NCBI GenBank assembly: GCA_021771915.1
Contig: JAETNY010000013.1
Coordinates: 1 to 59,644 of the forward strand
Source: Bacillota bacterium
GTDB lineage: Bacteria > Bacillota > Dehalobacteriia > UBA4068 > UBA4997
Direction of reading: 5' to 3'
Length of the DNA stretch: 59,644 nt
Position numbers and translations under genes: made by a program. The stretch's first letter is position 1, and every line of letters starts with the position of its first letter. This document shows positions 16,216 to 21,230 of this stretch, one piece after another. A model generated the notes under the pieces. It searched no databases. It had not been told where the DNA came from and saw only the letters and a program-made list of their open reading frames with translations.

Positions 16216-17505
16216 TTATGAAATGTTTAAGCCGCCCATATTCAGCAGCACGCTCAGGGTAAAATGCCGTCCCTCTTTTTCAATCTGCACTGCGCCCTGA
16301 TATTTTTCGGCCACCATCTGAATATTAGCCAAACCGATGCCCGGCGGCGACAGGGGCTGCTCCGCACAGCTATTACTAAACTCCAGCAAATAAAAATCTC
16401 CCTGCCGCCCACCTTTAATGCGGATTGCTTTCTCCCCCACCAACGTCCGACAGGAGTTAATAGCATTATCCAGCGCATTGGCAATAATTACACAGAGGTC
16501 AAAATCATCTACTCCTGAATTCTGCGGACAAAATAGCAAAACCTCGGTTTTTATGCCCCCGGCCTGCGCCAGCCCCAGCTTCTCTGCCAGCAGAATATCC
16601 ACCACGGCGTTGCCGGTGTTATACGGAAAGGATAGCGTATCAGCCGCCGCAGAGATTTTTTGCAGATAGGCCAGACCAGCCGCTAAATCGCCCTGGCGCA
16701 GCAAACCGCCCAAAACCGATAAATGATTTTTAACGTCGTGCCGAAAAGACTGCGTTTGCGCATAACGCAGCTGCACTTCACGGACATAGGTTTTCTGTGC
16801 CTGCACCGCCTGCGCCAGCGAATTTAACTCGGCCTGCGCCTGAAAACCCAACCTAATACGCCGATAGGCATAAAGCGTGCAAAACAGAGCCGCCAGACCA
16901 AAAAGCTGCAAAATTAACAGCGCCATATGTTGCACCATCAGTTCAGGAGAACTTTCAACGCTAATATAGCTATATGAGGTCTGCAAAATATACAATTCCA
17001 TAAGCAGCAAAAAAACTTCCGGCAATATCAGTAAAATAAATGCCAGCGTTTGCCGCTCCCCGTCCAGTGTCAGAAATTTTATAACCAGCCAGTAGCCGGC
17101 GGCACAAAAGACCAGCGCTAACACGCTGGCCAAGACCACCAGCAAATAAAGCAGCGGTCGGCCTATCATTTGAGGAAAAAGCAGCGCCTCGGCGGAATTA
17201 ACCACGCCAAAAGCCAGCTGTGCAATGTAGACGGCCAAAATTGCCGCCGCACCGGCAACCCAGGGCTGATTTTGCAGCGCCAGACGGTTAAAGCCGTATA
17301 AAACAATCAACTGTAAACCAATAGCCAGAAAACTGTAAAGTTCCAGTTTCACCGCCAGCCACTCCAAAGCCATAACCAGCAAAGGATAAACCGCCCAATA
17401 TCCAAGCTGCAATTTTTTTTCGGTCAGCCGACCCACAAACGCCGTCTGCAAAATGCTTTGTCCCAGCAAACAAAAAGCGTTCAAGCCAACACTGAAATAT
17501 TCCAT
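16216..17505 (-). CDS. Sensor histidine kinase, GHKL family (AgrC/NatK-like)
   Basis: 429 aa. Residues 1-215 contain about six to seven membrane helices, then a coiled linker, the phospho-acceptor His256 in SFRHDVKNHL, the N-box DLCVIIANALDNAINSC and a C-terminal ATP-lid region PPGIGLANIQMVAEKYQG. This is the architecture of peptide or cell-envelope sensors that partner LytTR regulators. It starts 2 nt after the response-regulator gene ends, so the pair is translated together. No cognate peptide gene was found next to it. Confidence 0.92.
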   Translation of the reverse strand: MEYFSVGLNAFCLLGQSILQTAFVGRLTEKKLQLGYWAVYPLLVMALEWLAVKLELYSFLAIGLQLIVLYGFNRLALQNQPWVAGAAAILAVYIAQLAFGVVNSAEALLFPQMIGRPLLYLLVVLASVLALVFCAAGYWLVIKFLTLDGERQTLAFILLILPEVFLLLMELYILQTSYSYISVESSPELMVQHMALLILQLFGLAALFCTLYAYRRIRLGFQAQAELNSLAQAVQAQKTYVREVQLRYAQTQSFRHDVKNHLSVLGGLLRQGDLAAGLAYLQKISAAADTLSFPYNTGNAVVDILLAEKLGLAQAGGIKTEVLLFCPQNSGVDDFDLCVIIANALDNAINSCRTLVGEKAIRIKGGRQGDFYLLEFSNSCAEQPLSPPGIGLANIQMVAEKYQGAVQIEKEGRHFTLSVLLNMGGLNIS

Positions 17506-17506
17506 A

Positions 17507-18247
17507 TCAGCTTTCCCTCTCCGCCGTATCCGCTTCAGTATTATTTTGCGCCTTTATATTCCCAACTTTTTTCATATGACACAAAAGCGCTTGCCGCAAA
17601 TCGCGCTCACGCAACCGGGAAACCGGAATTTCCGCCCCCGTAGCCAGTCTGATTTGTCCGGCGCCGCACCCATGCACATAATCCAGATTAACAAGATAGC
17701 TGCGATGACAGCGGAAAAACCGACCGTCCACACGCTGCGCAAATACCTCCAGCTTATCATAAAAATCAATAACCGACCCGTTATTTTGATGAAGATAAAT
17801 TTTTCGCCCCTGTACCTCGCAATAAACAATCTGCGCCAAAGGCAAAACCTCACAAACCGCGCCTTTCTGGATAACCACAGTTTTACAATGCTGCTCCAGC
17901 CGGTTCAGCAAACGTGCCAAAGCTTCCGGCTGCACCGGCTTCAGCAGATAATCAAAAGCCTGCACCTCAAAAGCTTTAAAAACATATTCCGGAAGTATGG
18001 TTATAAAAATCAAAAAACCGTCAAACCCCAGGCGACGAAGCTGCTGCGCCGCCTGCATGCCGTCCGGCGGCGGCATTTTGATATCCAGAAAAACCATGTC
18101 TGGCCGCCAGCCCTGGTCATAAGCCGCCAAGAGTTCGGCCGCGTTGGTCAGCGTGCGCAGCCGGGCCCGCGGCCAGAACTCGCCAATCTGCGCGGCCAAC
18201 TGCGCCAGCATATACGGCTCATCGTCACATATCGCAATTTCCCACAT
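17507..18247 (-). CDS. LytTR-family response regulator
   Basis: 246 aa. The receiver domain has the acidic pair in CDDE, phospho-acceptor Asp55 in VFLDIKMP, and a conserved lysine in YLLKPVQ. The C-terminal LytTR DNA-binding domain (about 135-240) includes VYCEVQGRKIYLH, FFRCHRSYLVNLDYV and GAEIPVSRLRERDL. It lies between the HTH-desulfoferrodoxin gene upstream (9 bp) and the kinase gene downstream, so the three form an operon. Targets are unknown. Confidence 0.93.
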   Translation of the reverse strand: MWEIAICDDEPYMLAQLAAQIGEFWPRARLRTLTNAAELLAAYDQGWRPDMVFLDIKMPPPDGMQAAQQLRRLGFDGFLIFITILPEYVFKAFEVQAFDYLLKPVQPEALARLLNRLEQHCKTVVIQKGAVCEVLPLAQIVYCEVQGRKIYLHQNNGSVIDFYDKLEVFAQRVDGRFFRCHRSYLVNLDYVHGCGAGQIRLATGAEIPVSRLRERDLRQALLCHMKKVGNIKAQNNTEADTAERES

Positions 18248-18256
18248 CAGAAACTT

Positions 18257-18883
18257 TTACACCTCTGGCAAACGAACTTTGCGCGGCTTATCCGGTCTGG
18301 CAATGCGCTGCTTCATCAAACCATGCTGACTGCAATAGAAATAAATTTCTCCGTGCTGCTGCCGGGGGAAACGAACCTCCGGCGCCTGCTCTGGATAAAG
18401 CTTGATGAAAAGCACCCGGTCATAAGTTACATAAGCCACAAAAGCCAGATAATGCTGTTTGCTCATCTCATGCTGCCAGGTCAAATAATAATCCTCCTCA
18501 ACCTCGGCCACATTCAGGGAATGCTCCGCGCTCACCTCCTGCGCCGCCAGCGGCTGCAAGGGTCGCCCACAACAGGATATTTCCGCTTCACCCATGGCGA
18601 ACATGGCGCTGCCGCATTGTGGGCAAACGTAAAATTTAAGTTTTTTCATGTTACCAACCTCCTCATCATTGGGCTGCAAATCACCCAACAGAATTTTTTC
18701 AATATCCACAGCCAAAACCGCGGAAAGTTCAGGTAAAAGTGAAACGTCAGGGCAACCCAACCCTCTCTCCCACTTGGAAATCGTCCGGTCGCTCAAATTC
18801 AGAACGTCAGCCAGCTGCTTCTGCGTCCAGCCGCGCTCCTGTCGCAGGCTTAAAAGCAAACTACCAACCTTACTGCAATCCAT
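18257..18883 (-). CDS. XRE-type HTH regulator fused to a desulfoferrodoxin/superoxide reductase-like domain
   Basis: 208 aa. Residues 6-65 are a Cro/C1 HTH (RQERGWTQKQLADVLNLSDRTISKWERG). Residues 85-106 carry a desulforedoxin-type iron site: Cys87-x2-Cys90-x13-Cys104-Cys105. Residues 118-190 carry all five ligands of a neelaredoxin iron centre: His121, His138, His144, Cys184 and His187; the spacings 138-144 and 184-187 equal those of Desulfovibrio desulfoferrodoxin. The catalytic Glu-Lys pair before the first His is replaced (Ala-Glu), which suggests sensing over catalysis. ATG 18883 has AGAGGTG 6 nt upstream. It leads the LytTR operon. A redox- or superoxide-responsive regulator is inferred. 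Confidence 0.82.
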   Translation of the reverse strand: MDCSKVGSLLLSLRQERGWTQKQLADVLNLSDRTISKWERGLGCPDVSLLPELSAVLAVDIEKILLGDLQPNDEEVGNMKKLKFYVCPQCGSAMFAMGEAEISCCGRPLQPLAAQEVSAEHSLNVAEVEEDYYLTWQHEMSKQHYLAFVAYVTYDRVLFIKLYPEQAPEVRFPRQQHGEIYFYCSQHGLMKQRIARPDKPRKVRLPEV

Positions 18884-19007
18884 TTCAATCACCTCTGCTA
18901 TTTAGTATAATCTTTCTGCAAACAATTTGCAACAAACGCTCAGTAGAGTTCAGCCCGTTAGCCTGACTTAAAAAATCAGCCGCGCCAGAAATGACGCGAC
19001 TTTATGT

Positions 19008-19748: not shown

Positions 19749-20660
19749 CTATTTAGCGGAAATGGAATTAATCATCTTGGTGGCCTCCTCCAGAGAGAAC
19801 GGCCCCACAATATTTCCCTCATATTTACCATTCTGCCATTTAATTGCTCGCCGCCCATCATTACCTAAAATATAATAATCAATATTATTTAGCGAATACC
19901 TGACAATACTGCCAAATTTCATTTCATAAAGAGATTGTATTGCCTGCATTTCAGGCGACAAGATAGCCGGTTTATTATCCCAATGACCCCAGGCGTTATA
20001 ATTGATATATATTTTATCCAAATCATTGCCGGATTTTTTATTAAAATCAGCTGTAACAAACAAGTGATGACCATAATCATTAACCGTCAATTCACCGGCA
20101 CGATAACCGGCCGGCAGCCACTTTGGCACCAGCTTAACATATTTATTATAGACAGCCATACTATCAATTAAATCCTGCGTAACCGGCGGTTTTTCCGGCC
20201 AGCCGCTTTCATCGCCCCAACTGACAAACACCGCAAAAGGGTCATAACCCAAGGCATAAGCCGTCATGGAGCCGCCAAACAGCAACAACATCAAAACCGC
20301 CACAGCGCTGGCAAAGCGCCGCCAGGGTTTTATCAGCTTATGACGCCAATCTGGCTTTGCCGGAGCAGCCTGGCTCACATGCAATTCTGCATCATCATAA
20401 AAATCAAACAGCAGCTGTTCATCTTCCAACAGCGGATAATAATTCTCATAAAAATTATCCAAAGCCGCCTTGGCATTTTCCGAAGGTTCTTCATCTTGTC
20501 GGCGTTTCGCCAACAAATCCAGAATATACATCACCGCCTCCGGCTCCAACTGCTCCGACTCCGGCGAATTAAAATCTGCTTTCAAAAATGCTTCCAAAAC
20601 ATCGCTCTCAACATTATCAAATTTACTGTAATCAGCATTTTTGTTATCACCGGTCTTCAT
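19749..20660 (-). CDS. DUF4367-domain membrane protein, likely anti-sigma factor (copy 1)
   Basis: 303 aa. An acidic cytoplasmic N-terminus (DVLEAFLKADFNSPE, then a helix about 40-90) precedes one membrane helix (about 114-136, VAVLMLLLFGGSMTAYALGYDPF) and an extracellular DUF4367 domain (LVPKWLPAGY, YYILGNDGRRAIKWQNGKYEGNIVGPFSLEEATKMI). It is directly downstream of a sigma factor gene and paralogous to the protein at 56944-57810, sharing YNPFA/YDPFA and LKLVPKWLP-type motifs. The pairing suggests it holds the sigma factor at the membrane; that role is inferred. RBS AAAGGAGGT. Confidence 0.8.
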   Translation of the reverse strand: MKTGDNKNADYSKFDNVESDVLEAFLKADFNSPESEQLEPEAVMYILDLLAKRRQDEEPSENAKAALDNFYENYYPLLEDEQLLFDFYDDAELHVSQAAPAKPDWRHKLIKPWRRFASAVAVLMLLLFGGSMTAYALGYDPFAVFVSWGDESGWPEKPPVTQDLIDSMAVYNKYVKLVPKWLPAGYRAGELTVNDYGHHLFVTADFNKKSGNDLDKIYINYNAWGHWDNKPAILSPEMQAIQSLYEMKFGSIVRYSLNNIDYYILGNDGRRAIKWQNGKYEGNIVGPFSLEEATKMINSISAK

Positions 20661-20686
20661 CACGGCCCAACCTCCTTTCTTTTAAA

Positions 20687-20714
20687 TACGTAATAATAAA
20701 CGCCAAAAGTTACA
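20687..20714 (-). promoter_or_regulatory. Possible ECF-type promoter before DUF4367 copy 1
   Basis: Right after the sigma-gene stop, the minus strand has TGTAACTTTT (its TGTAAC at 20709-20714), a classic ECF -35, followed by TTAC after 15 bp or CGTA after 18 bp. The position equals that of the TGTTAC promoter in the second module. The -10 is uncertain. Confidence 0.35.
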
Positions 20715-21230
20715 CTATTTTTCACTTTTTTTATTTATCAGCACCTGCTGCAAAATCCTTTTGGCTCTGAATATTCGCTGCTTACAGGTATTAACTGAAA
20801 TACCATATTCAGCGGCAATTTCACTGGTTGAATAACCCTCCACCACAAATCTTTTCAAAATCTCATATTCCTTATATTTAACCAAATCACCATATAAAAA
20901 ATCCAAATCATCAGTTGGCATCTGCTTATCCGGATAATTATTCAACCAGTCTTCCATGGGCATATCCACAATGATATTAGTTATACAATCTCGCATACGC
21001 CAATAATTATATATATTCTTTTTCAATGCCGCCACCAGCCAACCGCCAGGATTGGGGTGCTGAACCAACAAATCAACTTTAGCGCAGGCCATAAGAAAAG
21101 TATCCTGCACAATATCCTCTGCCGCTGCCGAGCCACTCATCAGTTTTTGTGCATAATTATACAATTTATCATATTTTTTCAGATAAAGCTTGTTAATAAA
21201 TTCCTTTTCCTCCGGCTTTAACTCTCGCAT
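20715..21230 (-). CDS. ECF-like sigma-70 family RNA polymerase sigma factor (copy 1)
   Basis: 171 aa with region 2 (YDKLYNYAQKLMSGSAAAEDIVQDTFLMACAKVD) and region 4 (YEILKRFVVEGYSTSEIAAEYGISVNTCKQRIFRAKRILQQ), joined by a variable linker; no region 3 or 1.1. Such factors redirect RNA polymerase to small regulons under envelope or other stress. It lies just upstream of the DUF4367 gene, its probable membrane partner. A promoter TTGGAA-17-TAAAAT (21281-21309) lies upstream. RBS is weak. Confidence 0.9.
   Translation of the reverse strand: MRELKPEEKEFINKLYLKKYDKLYNYAQKLMSGSAAAEDIVQDTFLMACAKVDLLVQHPNPGGWLVAALKKNIYNYWRMRDCITNIIVDMPMEDWLNNYPDKQMPTDDLDFLYGDLVKYKEYEILKRFVVEGYSTSEIAAEYGISVNTCKQRIFRAKRILQQVLINKKSEK

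Follow-up and report, generated by a model that had tools for sequence, protein, structure and literature searches.

An open reading frame on the window analysed here, the whole stretch of 59,644 nucleotides from a member of the Bacillota, raised the question of what an iron module of the superoxide reductase (SOR) type does when it is joined to a DNA-binding domain, and whether the fusion protein is mainly an enzyme or a regulator. Known superoxide-sensing regulators, such as SoxR, use iron-sulfur clusters; in peroxide sensors the task falls to Fur-type iron or to cysteines. To our knowledge, no characterised transcription factor has a Fe-His4-Cys sensor of the SOR type. If a SOR site has indeed been turned into a transcriptional sensor, it would perform the task of SoxR-type sensing by another chemistry.

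Domain architecture and iron sites

The gene (Table 1) proved to be real and located on the minus strand, with exactly the boundaries proposed in a first-pass annotation of this DNA, and its ATG was preceded by a Shine-Dalgarno sequence (AGAGGTG). The XRE helix-turn-helix (HTH) that the annotation had placed ahead of the iron module was recovered by a Pfam profile search of the protein (HTH_3, E-value 2.1e-14; 53.7 bits vs. a cut-off of 23). Residues 80–191 matched desulfoferrodoxin (TIGR00320, E-value 1.8e-8) with a score far below the curated cut-off (34.6 vs. 146.9 bits), and PF01880 also scored below its cut-off (12.6 vs. 22.2 bits). The C-terminal part matched PDB entry 1dfx (E-value 3e-6), and a family profile built from 51 sequences reached the superoxide reductase of D. 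baarsii at an E-value of 4.9e-12. An AlphaFold model of the protein had a mean pLDDT of 87.4; its best PDB matches in Foldseek were the SORs of D. baarsii, D. desulfuricans and T. pallidum, with E-values down to 1.6e-9 and TM-scores of 0.71–0.77 on the target. The neelaredoxin-like fold, named beforehand as the point on which the earlier reading could fail, is thus the one predicted. The profile searches, the PDB comparison and the AlphaFold/Foldseek result all point the same way, so the fusion is not a chance arrangement: in silico, the protein is an XRE HTH followed by a desulfoferrodoxin-fold domain whose two iron sites are both complete.

All nine iron ligands listed in the first-pass annotation were found at the positions given there (Table 1). 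Centre I follows the pattern CxxC-x13-CC, and the centre II set of four histidines and one cysteine is complete. The fold, the Cys4 site and the His4Cys site are shared with desulfoferrodoxin/2Fe-SOR (D. baarsii 2ji1/2ji2, D. desulfuricans 1dfx, T. pallidum 1y07), the free form of which begins at the equivalent of residue 79. In contrast to these proteins, the window protein carries an N-terminal HTH and has Ala-Glu in place of Glu47-Lys48. The spacings of the last four ligands had been said to equal those in Desulfovibrio; this applied to two of the three spacings (6 and 3), whereas His144–Cys184 was one residue shorter in the alignment with 1dfx (40 vs. 41).

Table 1. Features of the HTH-Dx-SOR locus and its operon, with positions in the window.
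Feature	Position	Strand	Details and evidence
HTH-Dx-SOR gene	18257..18883	minus	208 aa; ATG at 18883; stop TAA 18257-18259
XRE/HTH_3 DNA-binding domain, residues 7-63	18695..18865	minus	Pfam HTH_3, Foldseek matches to XRE regulators
Desulforedoxin (centre I) domain, residues 80-112, Cys87/90/104/105	18548..18646	minus	Profile and homolog conservation
Neelaredoxin-like (centre II) ligands His121, His138, His144, Cys184, His187	18323..18523	minus	Profile, homologs, structure matches
Ala119-Glu120, aligned with catalytic Glu47-Lys48 of D. baarsii SOR	18524..18529	minus	Profile alignment
Internal Shine-Dalgarno GAGGAGG, 8 nt ahead of codon 79 ATG	18658..18664	minus	Sequence, homologs
Predicted stand-alone Dx-SOR, 130 aa, from ATG 18647-18649 (codon 79)	18257..18649	minus	Conserved GGAGG and ATG; inference
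Conserved upstream element AACTCTACTGAGCGTTTGTTG	18930..18950	minus	Homolog upstream comparison
Predicted operator core, inverted repeat CTACT-GAG-CGTTT (family CTACG-N3-CGTAG)	18934..18946	minus	Homolog upstream regions
-35 box TTGCAA	18927..18932	minus	Promoter alignment with homologs
-10 box TATACT, 17-bp spacer	18904..18909	minus	Promoter alignment with homologs
LytTR response regulator gene	17507..18247	minus	9 nt downstream, same operon; Pfam Response_reg and LytTR
GHKL sensor histidine kinase gene	16216..17505	minus	1 nt further, same operon; Pfam HATPase_c_5

Conservation within the HTH-Dx-SOR class

Because its architecture matches, the window protein was assigned to the HTH-Dx-SOR class, defined in SORGOdb in 2011 with 19 proteins in the same domain order of HTH, desulforedoxin and SOR unit (PMC3116461). 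The class definition given there, in text that also mentions an alignment figure, describes no operator, regulon, internal start or loss of Lys48 (PMC3116461). The architecture has been known since 2011; the first-pass annotation knew of no characterised regulator of this kind, and no functional study of any HTH-Dx-SOR protein was found in the open-licence literature searched. What is new here is the predicted operator, the small regulon and the internal start.

A single genome scan returned at least 309 relatives, and the design is common in Bacillota, with the gene present in 20 of 299 genomes in an even sample. One annotated record names its copy merely "helix-turn-helix domain-containing protein". 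As far as the open-licence literature shows, a class found widely among anaerobic Bacillota of gut and soil has gone unstudied, and it now comes with a predicted operator, a small predicted regulon and a dual-product hypothesis, predictions that make it testable in cultivated species such as those of Paenibacillus, Sporomusa or Peptoclostridium.

Ligand conservation was counted in 112 homologs (48 after thinning to <70% identity). Cys87, Cys90, Cys104, His138, His144 and Cys184 were kept in all 112 and Cys105 in 110, so that the conservation expected of the ligands held for centre I and the core of centre II; it did not extend fully to His121 and His187, each kept in 100 homologs and replaced in 12. 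As some lineages are without one or the other of these histidines, the chemistry of centre II cannot be the same throughout the class. His121 was often replaced by Glu or Asp (replacements in L129–L132, L136, L137, L161, L163, L164, L173 and L174), and these homologs offer a natural series on which of the centre II ligands signalling needs.

The loss of the active Glu-Lys pair, as claimed in the first-pass annotation, was seen in the window protein, where the family profile aligned Glu47-Lys48-His49 of D. baarsii with Ala-Glu-His at residues 119-120-121. Across the homologs, the Lys48 column contained Lys in just 12 of 112, making its loss a trait of the family, whereas the Glu47 column was Glu or Asp in 76 of 112, and the loss of Glu is no trait of the design. 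A relative of 97% identity reads DEEH where the window protein reads SAEH, which indicates that the loss of Glu was recent and that of Lys old.

A predicted internal translation start

A second Shine-Dalgarno sequence and ATG are situated at the domain junction (18647-18664). Codon 79 was ATG in 91 of the 112 homologs, and GGAGG preceded it in 66 of these 91. The Gly76 codon was GGA in 63 of 66 homologs (25 of 27 after thinning), compared to 27–32% at the other Gly codons of the gene; the binomial p-value for this excess, calculated on the first 54 homologs with a statistic that ignores relatedness, was 1.5e-20. On a tree of the first 97 homologs, all eight inferred losses of the ATG lacked GGAGG. 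In the genus of the window's organism Gly76 has changed to Val, yet GAGGAGG or CAGGAGG is found there at the 8-nt spacing favoured by true starts in these loci, and L063, in which Gly76 is also Val, has acquired a new Shine-Dalgarno sequence at the same 8-nt distance. At codon 79 the pairing energy ranked with the strongest of the gene (−8.3 vs. −7.1 kcal/mol for synonymous recodings), which is weak evidence when taken alone because other codons also deviate. The RNA around this start showed no unusual local folding (z −0.07). Stimulation of frameshifting at codons 79–81 by the Shine-Dalgarno sequence was considered and rejected, as there was no conserved slippery heptamer.

A competing explanation, concerning the dual-product part of our proposal only, is that the internal GGAGG-ATG is no start at all and is either a by-product of the linker residues Asp-Gly-Gly-Asn-Met or a relic of the gene fusion, with the full-length protein as the sole product. 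It draws support from the distance of 4 nt between GGAGG and ATG in most homologs, a spacing used by six true starts in the same loci compared to 43–44 at 7–8 nt, so that initiation in most homologs would be weak. Furthermore, an independent-pairs phylogenetic test gave a median p of 0.25 with too few events, and one homolog added later, L174, keeps GGAGG ahead of ATC. Against it count the GGA preference at Gly76, the co-occurring losses on the tree and the new Shine-Dalgarno sequences at 8 nt, and we give this explanation somewhat less than an even chance. In the window's organism, the sequence comparison points by a modest balance of probability to a real short product.

Upstream element and promoter

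Nearly all homologs had the element ACTCTACGGAGCGTTTATTG in their upstream DNA: of 80 regions compared, 78 contained it at ≤5 mismatches and 76 at ≤3. In 70 of the 78 it ended 2 nt short of a -35 box that was separated from a -10 box by 17 bp, and 16 positions of the element and adjoining -35 box carried at least 1.6 bits. The palindrome was initially read as AACnCTnCGnAGnGTT; this was replaced by CTACG-N3-CGTAG, as divergent homologs have the perfect repeat. Of the upstream regions of 110 homologs, 93 contained this core repeat at up to two mismatches, compared to 56 of 2200 control windows (2.5%); eight of the 110 homologs had no recognisable core repeat. The element is unique within the window, and operator and promoter searched together occurred once in the organism's whole genome. 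No paper describing the element as an operator was found, the one match being an unrelated survey of honey-bee pathogens.

There is strong in silico evidence for CTACG-N3-CGTAG as the candidate operator of a small regulon, and the earlier suggestion that the protein is a regulator is now backed by this conserved inverted repeat. A palindromic site ahead of the own gene and an HTH_3 domain are apparent features in common with the XRE autoregulators ImmR, DdrO and MsrR (PMC12565409), from which the window protein differs in having a two-iron SOR module where they have their sensing or cleavage parts. Activation was slightly favoured over repression, since nearly all promoters hold the element at one set distance from the -35 box; the promoter itself (TTGCAA-N17-TATACT) is fairly good and fits repression as well.

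Predicted regulon

In the 299 Bacillota genomes, an element match was found in 13 and the gene in 20, with both present in eight. Eight sites other than the gene's own (L115, L122, L124, L144, L145, L146, L149 and L158) had a -10 box at exactly 17 bp with 4–6 of 6 matches to TATAAT, and all eight of these promoter-like sites belonged to gene-bearing genomes. No -10 box at this distance was found for the five matches from gene-less genomes (L143, L151, L152, L154 and L155), nor for L121, which comes from a gene-bearing genome and is likewise not promoter-like.

Downstream of the element were a CAT-like gene in L124, GIY-YIG-like genes in L115, L122, L144 and L158, and genes for iron-sulfur-flavoprotein-like FMN reductases with the motif C-x2-C-x2-C-x7-C in L145 and L146; in L149, the downstream gene was cut by the contig end. 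The four GIY-YIG-like proteins, from three genomes, are small and have a weak Pfam match or none, and in two of the three genomes the element before such a gene lies approximately 3 kb upstream of the HTH-Dx-SOR gene. The sites of L145 and L146 are at 1501-1520 and show the same operator-promoter arrangement as the HTH-Dx-SOR gene; the reductases are flavodoxin-fold proteins with CQGCFxCW-x5-C, and a gene of this kind follows the HTH-Dx-SOR gene in L148.

Proposed function and alternatives

Taken together, sequence and model data lead us to read this HTH-Dx-SOR protein, with slightly better than even confidence, as a redox sensor and regulator that depends on iron and probably controls its own gene. 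Further points on this side come from the own genome, which gave no SOD match, no other desulfoferrodoxin and three rubrerythrin matches, and has a single operator-promoter. The protein would dimerise through its Dx-SOR part and place a pair of HTH domains on CTACG-N3-CGTAG at about −53 to −38. Transcription would respond to a loss of iron or to oxidation, by superoxide, peroxide or oxygen, of centre II (Fe-His4-Cys), centre I (Fe-Cys4) or both. Catalytic turnover may have been traded for signalling, as the Lys48 position is seldom Lys. The molecule sensed is a guess from the origin of the domain, and the CAT-like and GIY-YIG-like targets count against a redox sensor in that they are no classical oxidant-defence genes. 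The 130-aa form without HTH may enter mixed dimers or act by itself, damping or buffering the switch. The full proposal, in which one gene yields both a full-length redox regulator and a 130-aa Dx-SOR that pairs or competes with it, with a compact CTACG-N3-CGTAG regulon set by the oxidation state of Fe-His4-Cys, is tentative and is advanced at well under even odds.

The protein could instead be an enzyme first and a regulator second: a superoxide reductase, the sole SOR of its genome, that controls its own production. Its ligands for both centres are complete, neither a SOD nor a second desulfoferrodoxin was detected in the own genome, and a stand-alone Dx-SOR from the internal start would suit an enzyme. 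Moreover, SORGOdb counts the class among SOR, and one of the works it references concerns an active N. equitans SOR without the conserved glutamate (PMC3116461). Such a role is nevertheless unlikely given the scarcity of Lys48, the Ala at Glu47, the loss of His121 or His187 in 12 of 112 homologs each, and operator copies ahead of other genes, which suggest a regulator of more than itself.

A little less probable still is that the Dx-SOR part senses iron (or zinc) availability, or is a metal-stabilised dimerisation module, without oxidant chemistry. The invariance of the desulforedoxin Cys4 site and the His138/His144/Cys184 core, while outer ligands and the catalytic pair drift, would be in agreement with this. 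Against it stand the retention of each outer histidine in 100 of 112 homologs and the redox flavoproteins among the predicted regulon members. That the element, assigned from sequence and lacking a recognisable core in a few homologs, is the operator of another regulator while the HTH-Dx-SOR protein acts elsewhere is very improbable, as promoter-like sites occurred only in genomes with the gene and XRE regulators commonly bind palindromes upstream of their own genes (PMC12565409).

Neighbouring genes

The operon with a LytTR response regulator and a kinase, as described in the first-pass annotation, is real by its spacing but confined to close relatives. A conserved LytTR partnership was rejected, since the LytTR/GHKL pair follows the gene only in the closest relatives of the window's organism and is genus-specific; in other homologs the next gene is CAT-like, isochorismatase-like or unrelated. 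With the pair kept in these relatives, a regulator of the kind favoured above would in the window's organism act on itself and on the pair. As the own operon would be the only detectable target there, oxidant input would set the level of LytTR regulator and kinase.

The CAT-like gene was the most frequent immediate downstream neighbour, in 14 of 30 HTH-Dx-SOR loci scanned. This acyltransferase gene lies directly 3' of the HTH-Dx-SOR gene, often overlapping it (L014, L015, L019–L021, L026, L028, L030, L035, L036, L043, L080 and L131); the same list includes L124, where the operator alone is present. In L120, the operator and an HTH part like that of HTH-Dx-SOR, apparently truncated, are followed by a CAT-like gene with no iron module.

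Upstream of the gene, positions 19749-21230 of the minus strand contain a probable ECF sigma factor gene followed by one whose product probably has one membrane segment, judged from translation to be a possible sigma/anti-sigma pair.
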